From Bdellovibrionia bacterium (lineage in GTDB: Bacteria; Bdellovibrionota; Bdellovibrionia; Bdellovibrionales; JAGQZY01): a stretch of 64,000 bases of DNA. The stretch spans positions 310,001 to 374,000 of the forward strand of contig JAUHWH010000001.1 of NCBI GenBank assembly GCA_030424715.1. The letters run 5' to 3'. This document shows, piece by piece, positions 8,579 through 18,846 of the stretch. The position numbers were made by a program, and so were the translations under genes. Position 1 is the first letter of the stretch; every line of letters begins with the position of its first letter. Under the pieces are notes generated by a model. That model made no database searches. It saw only the letters and a list, made by a program, of their open reading frames with translations, and had not been told where the DNA came from.

Positions 8579-9975
8579 AGCGCAACGTTTTTATCAATCG
8601 CACTCTCAATTTAAGAAAAATTGCCTATATCGGTTTAGACATGGACCACACCCTGGTTCGATACAACAGTCGCGCTTTTGAAGCCTTGGCCTACGACCAA
8701 ATGTTGCACAAGTTGGTTAACGAAAAAAAATACCCTGCTGAAGTTCTAAAATTAAAGTTTGATTTTGATTCCGTGATTCGGGGCCTTGTCGTGGATTCCG
8801 GCAAAGGGAATTTGCTAAAAGTGAGTCGCCATGGCGCGATTCGAGCGTCCTTGCATGGAACGGAAAAAATCTCATTCCATCAGCAACAGCGCGATTATCA
8901 AGGGACCTATGTTGATCTGGGGTCACCCGATTTTTCAGCCATCGACACAGCCTTTTCTATGTCTGTGGCGGCTCTTTTTGGACAACTTGTGGGTCTCAAG
9001 GACGCAAGCCCGACCCAGTACCCAGACTACGCCCTTCTCCTTGAAGACATCGTGGGCGTTATGGACATGTCCCACCGCGATGACTCATTAAAAAGTATTG
9101 TTCGCAAAAATATGGGGGACTACCTCATTCAAGAACCAGAGGTGGCGAAGGGGCTTGAGCGTTACAAACAACATGGTAAGAAACTTTTTATTCTAACCAA
9201 CTCTGACTTTCACTATACCAAAGCTCTTTTGGATTACGCGATCGACCCTTTTCTTGAACAGCACCGGTCATGGATGGAGTTATTTGACTACACCATCACC
9301 AGCGCACGTAAACCTCGCTTCTTTTTTGACAAACAACATTTTTTAAAGGTCAACCCTGCCGATGGAACCATGACCAACTACGACGCCAAATTGGTTCCGG
9401 GAATCTACCAGGGGGGATGCGCCGATCTTTTAGAAAAAAGCCTCGACGTGGGCGGTGACGATATTTTGTATATTGGGGATCACATTTATGGTGACATCGT
9501 TCGTCTTAAAAAGGATTGCGCCTGGAGAACAGCCCTAGTGGTTGAAGAACTGGGTGACGAAATTGATAAAATGCAAAAAGTAAAACCTTCACAAGACAAA
9601 ATTCGAGAGCTTATGCAAAAGAAAAAACCTCTTGAAGAACAACTTGTGGATCTTGTGACCGAAGAAATTGAAACCGGTGAAAGTCATTCTGACACCATCT
9701 CTGAAATCCAAACAGCAATCAATCAGGTCGATAGTGCCATTGCCCCGTTGATCAAAGAAACCCAAGCAGCCTTTAATCACACCTGGGGCGAGGTCATGAG
9801 GGCCGGGAACGAAGAGAGTTACTTTGCCAATCAAGTGGATCGATTTGCTGATATCTATATGCCAAAACTCGCCGACCTGTTGGCGATTTCTCCTCGCACC
9901 TACTTTCGATCTTTCCGGCGCCCCTTGGCCCATGAACTGGCGCTGTCTTTAATGATTGAAGAACCTCAAGCTTAA
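8575..9975 (+). CDS. HAD-superfamily 5'-nucleotidase (HAD-IG, cN-II-like)
   Basis: A 466-residue protein with the HAD nucleophile motif GLDMDHTLVRYNS (catalytic Asp near residue 22), motif II LTNSDFHYT, and an acidic motif IV GDHIYGDIVRLKK. The order and length match the HAD-IG family related to eukaryotic cytosolic purine 5'-nucleotidase II. The C-terminal part (about 330-420) is strongly helical with many charged residues. The likely reaction is dephosphorylation of nucleoside 5'-monophosphates, and the substrate is not known. It overlaps the rhodanese gene by four bases and its TAA overlaps the convergent downstream stop codon by three bases. Confidence 0.9.
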   Translation: MKRNVFINRTLNLRKIAYIGLDMDHTLVRYNSRAFEALAYDQMLHKLVNEKKYPAEVLKLKFDFDSVIRGLVVDSGKGNLLKVSRHGAIRASLHGTEKISFHQQQRDYQGTYVDLGSPDFSAIDTAFSMSVAALFGQLVGLKDASPTQYPDYALLLEDIVGVMDMSHRDDSLKSIVRKNMGDYLIQEPEVAKGLERYKQHGKKLFILTNSDFHYTKALLDYAIDPFLEQHRSWMELFDYTITSARKPRFFFDKQHFLKVNPADGTMTNYDAKLVPGIYQGGCADLLEKSLDVGGDDILYIGDHIYGDIVRLKKDCAWRTALVVEELGDEIDKMQKVKPSQDKIRELMQKKKPLEEQLVDLVTEEIETGESHSDTISEIQTAINQVDSAIAPLIKETQAAFNHTWGEVMRAGNEESYFANQVDRFADIYMPKLADLLAISPRTYFRSFRRPLAHELALSLMIEEPQA

Positions 9976-10487
9976 TTGTCAGGGCTGTAGTAAAACAAAA
10001 CCGCTCGGTTGTCTTCATAACGGTACATGCTTATCCATGTTTGCTGGGTCTCGCGGTCTTTTTTCTCAAATGCCTTTTGCGCACGCAGAGCGATACAGTA
10101 GTCGCGCAGGTCTCTGCCACAAAAGGCTTTATAGCTTTTTCCATAGAGCGGTAAAACGGTCAGAAAAAAAACCGCTGATGATTCCGAAGTATCCAGTGGG
10201 CTCTGCTCGATCCTGATAGTTTTTGAAAGTTTGGCACTTTGGTTGGCAAAGGCAAGGTAGAACTCTTTTCCCCACGGGTCGTCGCTGAGAATGGCCAGAG
10301 GAGTGAACTGTTGAGCCAAGGGGAATAAGAATTTCGCTAACTTGTCGCCGGCGGCACTGGGATCACTGACCTCGGACCACTTAACCATTTTGCGCTCTTG
10401 CAGATGCACCCCTTGAATGATCACTGAAACCATCACTCCAGTGATAAAGAGGGCCGCAAGAACAATGAGGATGTTGACCTTTTTCAT
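9972..10487 (-). CDS. Small membrane-anchored or secreted protein, unknown function
   Basis: Not recognised. The frame is open from 10565, but ATG 10487 (MKKVNILIVLAALFITGV) gives a clear N-terminal hydrophobic segment, a membrane anchor or uncleaved signal, with about 171 residues. The rest is soluble, with two cysteines in AFCGRDLRDYCIAL that could form a disulfide outside the cytoplasm. It is convergent with the HAD nucleotidase, and the two stop codons share bases at 9972-9975. Only a weak ribosome binding site is seen. No partner is suggested by the neighbours. Confidence 0.7.
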   Translation of the reverse strand: MKKVNILIVLAALFITGVMVSVIIQGVHLQERKMVKWSEVSDPSAAGDKLAKFLFPLAQQFTPLAILSDDPWGKEFYLAFANQSAKLSKTIRIEQSPLDTSESSAVFFLTVLPLYGKSYKAFCGRDLRDYCIALRAQKAFEKKDRETQQTWISMYRYEDNRAVLFYYSPDN

Positions 10488-10600
10488 GGTCAATTCATTG
10501 CCGTAAACCCCATTAAATGCAACTGAGCTCCTTATTATACGCCGCGCATTGAAGCCCCGAGGCAAGGTTCTTACTTTGCCTTAGAACAGAGGACTTGATC

Positions 10601-11329
10601 ATGAGACAGGTACCCGACATTTCTACTTTCCTACTTATTGGTAGTGGGAAACTTGCCAAGCATTTGCAAAGTTATTTCGATGCTCAAGGTATTCCTTTTC
10701 TCTCTTGGAATCGCAGATCCCTCTCAATTCAAGATCTATCAGACAAGATTTCTGCCTGTGGAAAAGTTCTTCTTTGTATCAATGATGATGCCATCGAAGC
10801 TTTCTATTCCGAGTGGCGAAGACCAGACAAGATCTTTGTTCACTTTTCAGGAACCCTGGATGTTCCGGGTCTATTTGGTTTTCATCCTCTTATGAGCTTT
10901 GGCGATATTCCCTACGAGCATACTGTTTATAAAGACATCCACTTTGTGGGCACCCACCCCAGTGAGGACTTTCGTAAGGTTTTTCCAGAGCTGAACAATC
11001 CCTACTCAACCATTCGCTCAAGCGACAAGAGTCTCTATCATAGCCTGTGTGTATTGAGTGGGAACGGGACCACCCTTCTTTGGCAGCTTGTACAAAAAGA
11101 GTTCGAAAAAATAGGACTTCCAGAAGAGGCCCTTTTCCCATACTTGAAACAGATCACAAATAATATTTTGGAAAAGCAAGAAGGCCGATTCTCCGGCCCC
11201 TGGTACAGAAAAGATCTGAAAACCATTCAGCTCAACGAAACAGCTTTGTCGAACTCGCCTTTACAATCTCTTTACTTTGATTTTGAAAAACTCACTTCCC
11301 ACAGGGATCAATCCAATGAAAAGCATTAA
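10601..11329 (+). CDS. Rossmann-fold DUF2520-type protein, candidate ketopantoate reductase
   Basis: A protein of about 242 residues with an N-terminal dinucleotide-binding loop (LLIGSGKLAKHL) and the layout of the Rossmann-like plus DUF2520 family, including HFSGTLDVPG, FGFHPLMSF and a C-terminal helical bundle. It resembles NADP-dependent reductases of the PanE/F420-reductase type. ATG 10601 is preferred over TTG 10595 because AGAGGA lies seven bases upstream. It is the first gene of the pantothenate/CoA operon and overlaps panB by 14 bp. No panE or ilvC is present in the operon, so reduction of ketopantoate is a plausible but unproven role. A non-PanE ketopantoate reductase (PanG, Francisella) is known in a pan operon. 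Homology to it was not tested. Confidence 0.82.
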   Translation: MRQVPDISTFLLIGSGKLAKHLQSYFDAQGIPFLSWNRRSLSIQDLSDKISACGKVLLCINDDAIEAFYSEWRRPDKIFVHFSGTLDVPGLFGFHPLMSFGDIPYEHTVYKDIHFVGTHPSEDFRKVFPELNNPYSTIRSSDKSLYHSLCVLSGNGTTLLWQLVQKEFEKIGLPEEALFPYLKQITNNILEKQEGRFSGPWYRKDLKTIQLNETALSNSPLQSLYFDFEKLTSHRDQSNEKH

Positions 11330-15217: not shown

Positions 15218-16567
15218 CTAATAGGCTTCGATTCCCTCAACCCAATTGAAAAAATGAGTGAATGATGTTTTATCTTTTGAGCTCACTGCCTTCCACCTCT
15301 TTAAAAATGCATCAATCAACTCGAGAGTGGCCCCATAGGTTCTATTGTCGAGCGGCACGTGCTCGTGGTACCGCTTAGATTCTACTGCGAGCTTATTAAT
15401 CTCCCTGACCAAAACCGGGATGGCTTCTCCCTCAAAAAACTGTTCTTTGTAGAAGATCAGTTCATTCTTTAAATAGACTTTCATGTTGCCGAGGTCTTCT
15501 CGGAGCATCCTGCGATGGCGATGCCCCTGGAATTGCCACCCGTATTGGCTTTCAAAAAACCTCACATAAGCGCCAAGAATGGATGGCTCGCTGGTGAACC
15601 CAGACCAACTCCCTGGTCGCCCGAAGTTGGAGTTCAATTCAATAATTTTCATTTGGCCCTCTGAGTAGAATACATCGAAAGAAAACGCGCGATGACGGGA
15701 AAACTCTGCTGGCATTTCCCTAAGAAACCTGCTGATAAAATCGTCAACAGCTTTCATCTCTCGAGCTCGACCGTTTCCATACCAACGCGCAACGGTTGCA
15801 TCAGGAACAACATGTCTATCAAAGGTATGAACTCGGTACTCGTTCACTTTTTGAAAAGCCTGCTCTTTAGAAACGTCCAGGGCCGAAAGTCCCACTTTTT
15901 CTTGAATCAGATAACGCTCACCACTCGCCACTTTTGTTTCACCGGCCCAAGCGCTCGTCACCTCCGAAGGAACCGTCCCTTCATTTCGGTGATAAAGCGA
16001 CGATGAGTCATCCAGGAGGCGACGTACCAAAACATCGATTTTAGTGATCATACCTCCCGCAGCAGAGTTCGCCACCAAGAGAGGTTTAATCACAAACCCG
16101 TTGGGAAACTCTTTTTTAAAGACATGCCGTAACCTGGCTTCGTCCCGCAGAACTCGACCGGAACTATCCAGCAAACCCTGTTCTTGCAGAAAGGATTTTA
16201 GCCCCTCGCCCTTCATGTGATAGTCCGAGAAGCGAACACCCAGAGATTTTTTTAGGTATTCCGTGAAGATTAGTTTATCAGCAAGAAGAAGTTCAACCTC
16301 GCCATATCTCACCAGTCCCTCGCCGTAAAGGTAGTTAAAAAAGTCACGGCGGAATGCCGGAAGTCTTGGCCTTCGGTTGTGAAGAGTGACTGGAGCTCCT
16401 CCCTCCGCGATCAAAGCTGACAAACGCTGCACCTGTTCGTTTAAGAACAAGCGAGACGAGCTCGCCAACGGCTTTTCGAAAAAAACAGCAGAACAGAAAG
16501 ACCCAATCCCGTGGGCCGGCACGGTCGCACCCAACAACAATGCAACAATCAACAGACGGCTCCTCAC
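15218..16567 (-). CDS. Exported-looking ATP-grasp ligase-like protein
   Basis: About 449 residues from GTG 16567. That start overlaps the stop of the upstream gene (GTGA) and has GGAAGG upstream. An N-terminal signal-like segment RSRLLIVALLLGATVPAHG ends in AHG. From about residue 75 it resembles the C-terminal half of the neighbouring protein. The ATP-grasp elements seen in both are FP[DN]G[WF]VIK (ATP Lys about 161), a hinge QE (about 222-223), EYRV, and FSFDVF...MKIIELNSN with Mg-binding Asp, Glu and Asn (about 298, 310, 312). ATP-grasp enzymes form amide or thioester bonds through acylphosphates. The substrate is unknown. An exported ATP-dependent ligase is unusual. The signal could instead be a membrane anchor. 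Confidence 0.75.
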   Translation of the reverse strand: MRSRLLIVALLLGATVPAHGIGSFCSAVFFEKPLASSSRLFLNEQVQRLSALIAEGGAPVTLHNRRPRLPAFRRDFFNYLYGEGLVRYGEVELLLADKLIFTEYLKKSLGVRFSDYHMKGEGLKSFLQEQGLLDSSGRVLRDEARLRHVFKKEFPNGFVIKPLLVANSAAGGMITKIDVLVRRLLDDSSSLYHRNEGTVPSEVTSAWAGETKVASGERYLIQEKVGLSALDVSKEQAFQKVNEYRVHTFDRHVVPDATVARWYGNGRAREMKAVDDFISRFLREMPAEFSRHRAFSFDVFYSEGQMKIIELNSNFGRPGSWSGFTSEPSILGAYVRFFESQYGWQFQGHRHRRMLREDLGNMKVYLKNELIFYKEQFFEGEAIPVLVREINKLAVESKRYHEHVPLDNRTYGATLELIDAFLKRWKAVSSKDKTSFTHFFNWVEGIEAY

Positions 16568-18846
16568 GAAAACACCCTTCCACAACGCAGTCCCTGTGCC
16601 GGCGGCGTGACAGCCTTTTTCTCTCTCAGAGGGACTAGCTCCTTCAGAAAATAACGATATCTTTCGGGGACATTGAGCCGATGTTTCGAGGTGAATTTTT
16701 TCACAAACTCTATTTGTGAAGACTGAGATAGGCCCTCAGAGAGTTCGCCCCTCTTTAAAAGATCTGGCAGTCTTAGTAAAAATTTGTTCAGGGCTTTCAC
16801 TCCTCTTTTATCGTAAATCAAAAACCCTGAGTTGCTCATGGGATTCGACTCAATCATCCTCAAAGACCCGTCCTCTAAAACTGCGATGTCGAAGGCAAAA
16901 GGAGTCGCCCTGAGCTCTGCGGGCAACTTATCCAGAAGACGCTGCGTGAAACCCTCTACACGACGAATCTCATTTTCATCTCGCCACTCATCTGTCTCGG
17001 GAATTTCATATTGATAGCGTGGGACTGTTGACTCGCCACCGAGTATTCGACCGGCAATGGCCTCGACTCGGTATTCGGTGGCGATTTTTACTCGCTCTTG
17101 CACAATCGCATTGTGACTTTGTTTGAAATAACGCTTCAAACGCCAACCGTGAGAAGCCGGATGCTCCCTAGTGAGACGAGAAAGTATATCCGGGTTATTA
17201 CCAGAAGCTTTTCGCAAAGCTTCTTCTCGGACCCGTTGAAAGTCTTCAAAAAGTTCACCGTATTTTTCAAGTTCAACTTTCAAGTCATGTTTATCTGTGA
17301 TGATAAACTGCTCTTGCGTTGCACTCTCAAAAGCCCCCTTGATCACCCAGCCATCAGGAAACCGCTGGTTCAAAATCTTTTGCAATTGCTCAGGGGAAGT
17401 TGACGGTGTGAGAAGGTCCCTCAACAATAGGGTTTCTGGCATCGCGCGTGGGGCAAAGTCGTTCCAAAACAGAGCTTCAAAATATTTGTGTTCAAGAAAC
17501 TGACCAACAAACTGGTTGTAGAGTCCCGGATTGTAACGCCCCCTCAAAACTTGCTGTAGCTCCGGCAGGTTATGAAAGACAACGCTCTCTCCACCGAGTG
17601 ACAGCGGACGTTCTGGCAGATCATTGCCATTGACAAAGACAAGGCTTGATTGACGAACCCGGTATTTCTGAAGGTAGCTCATGTCGGTTTGATTGGCATA
17701 GGGGTTCGTAACACCGTCGGGGTACATTGTGCGAATCACCCACGGGCGTCCATCGGCCGCGACTTCAGCTCGATGCAGACGCTCACGGTCTCTCTTAAAA
17801 AGGCCATCTTTTTTTTCAACGCTTGCATCCGGCTGTTGTGCAAGGCTCTTATTGAAAAGACCTAACACTTTTTGGTATAGATCTAACAAGCGAAAATCGC
17901 TATTCGCCTCCCTTAACTCAATGATCGGAAGAGCCTTGACCCAGAAGGACTCCACAAGATACCGAGAAATCCAATCATTGGGGAACATAAACACCAGAAG
18001 CGAAGAAATTCGTACGTGATTCCATTTTGCGACCGGCAGGAGTGCATCCACACCTTCAGACTCGACAATATGTCGGACTTGTTTTTTTACATCCCCAATA
18101 TCCTGAATCCAAGCATCACTCTTTCCGTGAAGCTCCATGGTCTGTCGATACAAGAAGTCGTCAAAAAACTGTCGACGAGAGGGTTGATAATTCGCGTCCA
18201 AAATCCGCGTCATCATACCTCTAGAATAGGAACCCATGTAAGGTTTGCGATTTCTTGGAACTTTGAAGTACCGCTCTAATTCAAATCGATGGCGCGGCGA
18301 TAAATAGGTGCGAAGAAACCCGAGAAGAGCGTCTATATCGGCTTGTCCAGGATTGCCGCCGCCGATCTCAATATTGACATGAATCGCCACTGGCTGACCC
18401 GAGCCGACGCCTCGAGCCCCCTTGTCTTTTAAATACCTGAGTGCCTCGTTAAGCTTAACCACTTGCTCCATGTTTTCTAGGGGTTCGGTGATAATCTCTG
18501 TTACAAATTTTTCGGGATTAAACTCGCCTCGGGATGTCCCATTGTCATCCAACTCCACTCGAAAACTTCCCAAAGCCGTCTGTTTGTGTTTAAAAATTTC
18601 AACATCCCAAGGGGTCTCTTGTCCGGTTGCGAGATCCACCATGTAGCGCTTGTTTTTGACCTTAACGCTTCCACCGAGATACTCATGTAAATACTGCGAT
18701 ATCATTTGCTGACTAAGTCCGGTCAGCTCAATTTCGATGCCCACCCTTGGTTGGGAGTTTTCATGGAGCCAATAAAACTGGGCTTCAGCGAGCAGATCTT
18801 GGCTTTTTGCCAGTAAAGGAAACGCGCTGAAAAGACAAAAAACCAA
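16564..18846 (-). CDS. Amidoligase (GS-like COOH-NH2 ligase) fused to an ATP-grasp domain, exported-looking
   Basis: A 760-residue protein. After a hydrophobic N-terminus (VFCLFSAFPLLA) comes the acidic motif RVGIEIELTGL (residues 34-43), matching the glutamine-synthetase-like amidoligase family, with VTEIITEPLENM, a glycine-rich AIHVNIEIGGGNPG and IIELREANSD. Residues about 440-710 are an ATP-grasp module: FPDGWVIK (Lys about 503), IVQERVKI, TEYRVEA and FAFDIAV...LRMIESNP (Asp about 653, Glu about 666, Asn about 668). Such fusions were predicted to make peptide or cell-surface amide bonds (family knowledge). The first possible start is TTG 18846, with no good ribosome binding site. A non-standard upstream start would lengthen the signal peptide. 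It is translationally coupled to the next gene. Confidence 0.78.
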   Translation of the reverse strand: MVFCLFSAFPLLAKSQDLLAEAQFYWLHENSQPRVGIEIELTGLSQQMISQYLHEYLGGSVKVKNKRYMVDLATGQETPWDVEIFKHKQTALGSFRVELDDNGTSRGEFNPEKFVTEIITEPLENMEQVVKLNEALRYLKDKGARGVGSGQPVAIHVNIEIGGGNPGQADIDALLGFLRTYLSPRHRFELERYFKVPRNRKPYMGSYSRGMMTRILDANYQPSRRQFFDDFLYRQTMELHGKSDAWIQDIGDVKKQVRHIVESEGVDALLPVAKWNHVRISSLLVFMFPNDWISRYLVESFWVKALPIIELREANSDFRLLDLYQKVLGLFNKSLAQQPDASVEKKDGLFKRDRERLHRAEVAADGRPWVIRTMYPDGVTNPYANQTDMSYLQKYRVRQSSLVFVNGNDLPERPLSLGGESVVFHNLPELQQVLRGRYNPGLYNQFVGQFLEHKYFEALFWNDFAPRAMPETLLLRDLLTPSTSPEQLQKILNQRFPDGWVIKGAFESATQEQFIITDKHDLKVELEKYGELFEDFQRVREEALRKASGNNPDILSRLTREHPASHGWRLKRYFKQSHNAIVQERVKIATEYRVEAIAGRILGGESTVPRYQYEIPETDEWRDENEIRRVEGFTQRLLDKLPAELRATPFAFDIAVLEDGSLRMIESNPMSNSGFLIYDKRGVKALNKFLLRLPDLLKRGELSEGLSQSSQIEFVKKFTSKHRLNVPERYRYFLKELVPLREKKAVTPPAQGLRCGRVFS

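Follow-up and report, generated by a model that had tools for sequence, protein, structure and literature searches.

A predicted Sec-exported amidoligase/ATP-grasp ligase system in Bdellovibrionota

Amidoligases and ATP-grasp enzymes activate a carboxylate as an acyl-phosphate, which is then transferred to an amine. Free ATP is scarce outside the cytoplasm and, to our knowledge, ATP-dependent ligases are assumed to work inside it. The Amidoligase_2 family (PF12224), as reportedly described by Iyer et al. in 2009, consists of COOH-NH2 ligases that have a class-I GATase as partner. Linked ligases of the R2K/CDC123 clade were proposed to act in series (PMC4431377), and the animal protein C7orf58/CPED1, a TTL-like ATP-grasp that has a signal peptide and is predicted to be secreted, was predicted to modify surface polymers (PMC2824669). 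In the open-access literature searched, we found no description of exported bacterial amidoligase/ATP-grasp proteins.

The window, i.e. the whole stretch of 64,000 nucleotides analysed here, contains two minus-strand open reading frames coupled by a GTGA overlap, and both the ORF list and the sequence place them where a preliminary description of this DNA had reported them (Table 1). A chance pair of ORFs, or a pair of decaying enzymes, was ruled out by the conservation in homologues and by the catalytic residues.

Table 1. Features of the two-gene locus (positions within the window)
Feature	Position	Strand	Details and basis
Gene 1	16564..18846	minus	760 aa; amidoligase + ATP-grasp fusion with hydrophobic N-terminus; ORF call, Pfam, full-length homologues, model
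Signal-like hydrophobic segment of gene 1, from TTG start, MVFCLFSAFPLLAKS	18802..18846	minus	open frame runs on upstream; QDLL aligns with homologues
Amidoligase_2 (PF12224) domain of gene 1, residues 34-236	18139..18747	minus	E=1e-18, 68.6 bits, cut-off 22
Pre-ATP-grasp + ATP-grasp region of gene 1, about residues 415-700	16747..17604	minus	K503, Q583, E591-x-R593, D653, E666-x-N668; R2K matches, invariant residues, fold match to PsnB, MdnC, Ddl
CGRVF, C-terminal motif of gene 1 (protein ends CGRVFS)	16570..16584	minus	sole cysteine outside signal segment
GTGA overlap, gene-2 GTG start / gene-1 TGA stop	16564..16567	minus	read from sequence
Gene 2	15218..16585	minus	ATP-grasp paralogue; 449 aa from coupled GTG (16567), 455 aa from ORF-tool TTG (16585), 18 bp further upstream
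CSAVF, N-terminal motif of gene 2, directly after predicted signal	16481..16495	minus	sole cysteine outside signal segment
ATP-grasp core of gene 2, about residues 98-330	15596..16294	minus	FVIKP, QEKV, EYRVH, FDVF, IELN; residue alignment, hhalign

Gene 1 had been read as an amidoligase N-terminus joined to an ATP-grasp C-terminus, and the Pfam profiles agree with this reading. Amidoligase_2 matches at residues 34-236, within the 30-330 range where the domain had been expected (71.1 bits in the genome-wide search), and R2K_2 and R2K_3 match residues 575-676 with 24.6 and 25.6 bits, just below their cut-offs of 26.2 and 26.3. The curated R2K cut-offs (PF18299/PF14243) missed by gene 1 are both passed by its homologue L064. 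The GxExE motif and further conserved polar residues are shared with canonical amidoligases: G36, E38, E40, E117, P122, N158, E160, and R312 are invariant in an alignment (A1) that includes them. The model of the protein (pLDDT 80) gave fold matches to the graspetide ligases PsnB and MdnC, and also to Ddl and ArgX. Sequence searches, profiles included, found no relative of solved structure.

Gene 2 was matched by none of the Pfam and NCBIfam profiles. A profile built from its family, with gene 1 left out, recovers the C-terminal half of gene 1 at E=1.2e-14, and the profile-profile comparison of gene 2 with the gene-1 ATP-grasp by hhalign gives 99% probability (E=6.5e-18). The AlphaFold model of gene 2 (mean pLDDT 73) matches D-Ala-D-Ala ligases, YwfE, LysX, and Cdc123 with E values of about 1e-5 to 1e-4 and low TM-scores. 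The motifs proposed earlier as shared by the two proteins are present and aligned. Gene 2 thus adds another ATP-grasp, one that shares its lineage with the ATP-grasp of gene 1.

To find relatives, we searched the 369 genomes of the phylum with the ATP-grasp half of gene 1 and then read the regions recovered. Fused homologues (L064, L067, L065, L066, L068, and L070), with 28-37% identity, occur in several families of Bdellovibrionota, a phylum known for predatory bacteria. A scan of about 85,000 prokaryote species for conserved motifs returned ten loci, all in assemblies that genome search places in Bdellovibrionota and that are labelled Bdellovibrionaceae, Bdellovibrionales, Bacteriovoracaceae, Bdellovibrio sp., or 'Deltaproteobacteria' groundwater genomes; since the scan demands two short peptide patterns, distant forms outside the phylum could have escaped it. 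Standalone exported-type amidoligases were found at L004, L028, L029, and L145. The distribution is patchy: the one same-genus genome has a standalone amidoligase only. A phage, plasmid, or defence origin was rejected, with no match in phage and plasmid records, none in PADLOC, and only weak matches to a PHROG of no assigned function.

At L064 (6924-10454; Bacteriovoracaceae, cf. L077), a single protein of 1176 aa combines a gene-2-like ATP-grasp (about residues 75-423), an amidoligase, and a gene-1-like ATP-grasp. The relative of Bdellovibrio at L145 has a tight operon encoding a gene-2-like ATP-grasp, an amidoligase, and a 748-aa GxExE protein, and L147 pairs a gene-2-like ATP-grasp with a protein of the 748-aa type. 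To judge by this fusion, this operon, and this pair, gene 1 and gene 2 are predicted to work together. At six loci (L065, L067, L068, L069, L071, and L073, where some fusions are truncated by contig ends), the fused protein has an exported-type neighbour of the GATase-like BPL_N family (PF09825); genome search found neither a BPL_N partner nor a 748-like gene in the source genome.

Members of the 748-aa family (L145 6250-8496, L147 10152-12515, and L151 10646-12690) share two motifs, GFESE and a C-terminal NCTTW, and the family has matches in 30 of the 369 genomes. It is signal-bearing and adjoins ATP-grasps in L145 and L147; in L151 it is split, lacks a signal, and lies in a glycan cluster. 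Elsewhere, L160 (5379-12650) holds four consecutive signal-bearing genes, encoding a BPL_N-like protein, an IucA/IucC-like protein (weak, E=7e-5), an Amidoligase_2 protein, and a 971-aa protein in which GxExE occurs twice, possibly another exported ligase set.

Both proteins had been described as starting with hydrophobic signal-like segments. This holds for gene 2, which from its GTG shows a predicted signal of textbook Sec type, MRSRLLIVALLLGATVPAHG, and such starts are kept in homologues. It holds in part for gene 1: its sole ATG/GTG/TTG start, TTG 18846, opens a short hydrophobic stretch with zero positive charge. Because the gene-1 frame stays open further upstream, as LLRVQAVACSVALVFCLFSAFPLLAKS|QD, its true start is uncertain and may lie upstream, perhaps with a non-standard start or a sequence error there. 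The QDLL that begins the mature part aligns with the QDFL or QDLV following the signals of homologues. We scored N-termini with a home-made export rule (charged n-region, hydrophobic core, AxA-like site), a crude one that is not SignalP and flags 227 of 635 sampled ORFs. The rule flags gene 2, most fused proteins, all 12 listed exported-type amidoligases, and six of the seven BPL_N partners; it passes over gene 1 read from the TTG, the four canonical amidoligases, and the four glycan-cluster ATP-grasps.

Our analysis added one feature that the preliminary description lacked, a terminal cysteine motif. Defined as C-x-x-[LIV]-[FLYMI] located either in the final 20 residues or immediately behind the signal, it occurs in 22 of 29 exported ligase-family proteins, often with the only mature cysteine, versus 10 of 392 other exported soluble ORFs taken from 1.25 Mb of the source genome and 0.4 Mb of one relative (G191). 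L160 is among the other loci at which it is seen. The Fisher value of 3e-23 overstates this contrast, because the family was already in view when we defined the motif and its members are not independent, being related. The background of about 2.6% rules out a general trait of exported proteins. All three proteins of the L145 operon carry the motif and make up three of the five carriers among 114 exported ORFs (chance 4e-5). It can lie at the N-terminal or the C-terminal end, in tails without any other alignable sequence, and is common to otherwise different members. Searches for more members, and for their partner, could make use of it. Three other carriers in the source genome (G000), all signal-bearing, lie on contig C15 (112970-113650 and 459082-460011) and contig C8 (178089-178964); one has a weak Pkinase match (E=0.0014, below cut-off), one is PRTase-like by eye without a Pfam match, and one is of no assigned kind.

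These features have to be weighed against the possibility that both proteins are ordinary cytoplasmic ligases, making for example a precursor for a cell-surface polymer, in which case the catalytic domains would face the cytoplasm and the hydrophobic stretch would be either an anchor or the product of a wrongly called start. The cytoplasm is where ATP is located, the uncertain start of gene 1 fits such a reading, and the gene-2 homologues L032, L146, L149, and L151 lack a signal and lie among glycosyltransferases and a transporter. Since close homologues in these glycan clusters (L032 and L151) are signal-less, a cytoplasmic role would be ancestral or at least possible. We nevertheless consider this explanation unlikely for the proteins of the window, as signal-like starts recur in independent lineages and do so jointly in amidoligases, ATP-grasps, BPL_N, and 748-like partners, the start of L064 is lipobox-like, and the terminal cysteine motif is confined to exported forms. 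Judged from charge and hydropathy of the N-termini, the topology favours export, and an inward-facing membrane anchor is a weak proposal because positively charged n-regions put the following domain outside (N-in/C-out).

Export could also have been accompanied by loss of ATP-dependent ligation, leaving binding proteins, pseudoenzymes, or enzymes working in the hydrolytic direction. Such a change would suit the shortage of ATP outside, and one side branch of gene-2-like proteins, f10 (L031, L033, L034, L036-L040, and L045), does have Arg in place of the ATP-site Lys and Val in place of the Asn of ExN. These proteins mostly have signal-like starts and Lys/Ala-rich linkers, and none of the nine carries the terminal cysteine motif. 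In the fused family, however, K503, Q583, E591, R593, D653, E666, and N668 are invariant in an alignment of seven proteins with 28-37% identity. The amidoligase positions checked are invariant too, apart from E38, which is K in L070, and position 156, occupied by H or Q. The ATP-site Lys, ExR, D, and ExN are likewise kept in gene 2, in L064, and in L032 from a glycan cluster. Judged by these retained catalytic residues, gene 2 and the fusions have the look of active ligases, and we regard their conversion into non-ligases as improbable; the residue changes make f10 a possible exception, whose members may not be active ligases. The retention of ATP-binding residues, on which the preliminary description had made its proposal depend, is thereby upheld for the fused family and gene 2 and fails for this single branch.

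The reading that we favour and hold to be likely is that gene 1 and gene 2 encode a Sec-exported ATP-dependent amide/peptide-ligase system. Their products would leave the cytoplasm by Sec and work as active ligases; we have fairly good confidence that they are both exported and active, and within it a site of action in or around another cell takes a share that leaves this site a tentative assignment. As export-type signals are present and ATP-using active sites are kept, the exported ligases probably act outside the producing cell. The glutamine-synthetase-like amidoligase and the ATP-grasp of gene 1 would each convert a carboxylate into an acyl-phosphate and pass it to an amine, and together with gene 2 they would attach residues one after another to a glycan, peptide, or protein: by analogy with linked ligases (PMC4431377), the fusion of two ligases accompanied by a second ATP-grasp suggests successive ligations. 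The terminal cysteine motif would tether or direct the ligases. Envelope ATP could supply them, or else the exported ligases would arrive where ATP is present, in prey or lysed cells. In B. bacteriovorus, a native Sec signal is enough to carry a reporter into the medium, and the bdelloplast is reached by Bd0468 (PMC12622784), so that proteins of this kind could reach prey. That the ligases are delivered to prey or another site containing ATP is thus a plausible hypothesis.

A broader and speculative extension, to which we give little weight, is that Bdellovibrionota export a set of nucleotide-using enzymes (amidoligases and ATP-grasps, here perhaps also kinase-like and phosphoribosyltransferase-like proteins) marked by a terminal CxxVF-like cysteine; the motif would serve as a sorting or docking tag, and the enzymes would draw on the ATP of another cell to modify targets inside it. 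A multi-gene ligase family with export signals and intact active sites across one phylum raises the questions of where its ATP comes from and what is tagged. If the ligases act in prey, they would be a chemical-tagging arm of bacterial predation, and if they act in the periplasm, they would revise what is thought possible there.

Compared with the systems described above, gene 1 has the same catalytic domain and conserved residues as the canonical Amidoligase_2 proteins. These are single-domain proteins without a signal, whereas in gene 1 the domain is joined to an ATP-grasp behind a putative export-type start, and the partner is an ATP-grasp or, elsewhere, BPL_N. The source genome provides an internal contrast, a canonical pair at L046 made of a signal-less amidoligase (9121-10188) followed by a class-I glutamine amidotransferase-like gene (10189-11022). 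The R2K/CDC123 clade (PF18299, PF14243; PMC4431377) gives the best sequence match of the gene-1 ATP-grasp, but R2K.3 has ExGD where the window proteins have ExN, and descriptions of R2K members have them in the cytoplasm, linked to T6SS, or delivered to a host, in contrast to the Sec-type export predicted here. C7orf58/CPED1 is an ATP-grasp ligase bearing a signal peptide, as is predicted for gene 1 and gene 2; unlike the window system, it belongs to the eukaryotic secretory pathway and is fused to a PC-esterase, with no amidoligase. The Pseudomonas rlo operon likewise links an ATP-grasp to exported envelope proteins, but there the ATP-grasp stays in the cytoplasm and the protease alone is exported (PMC12239564). 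The enzyme classes are already known, while the fused, multi-ligase arrangement with predicted export is new and so far found only in Bdellovibrionota.
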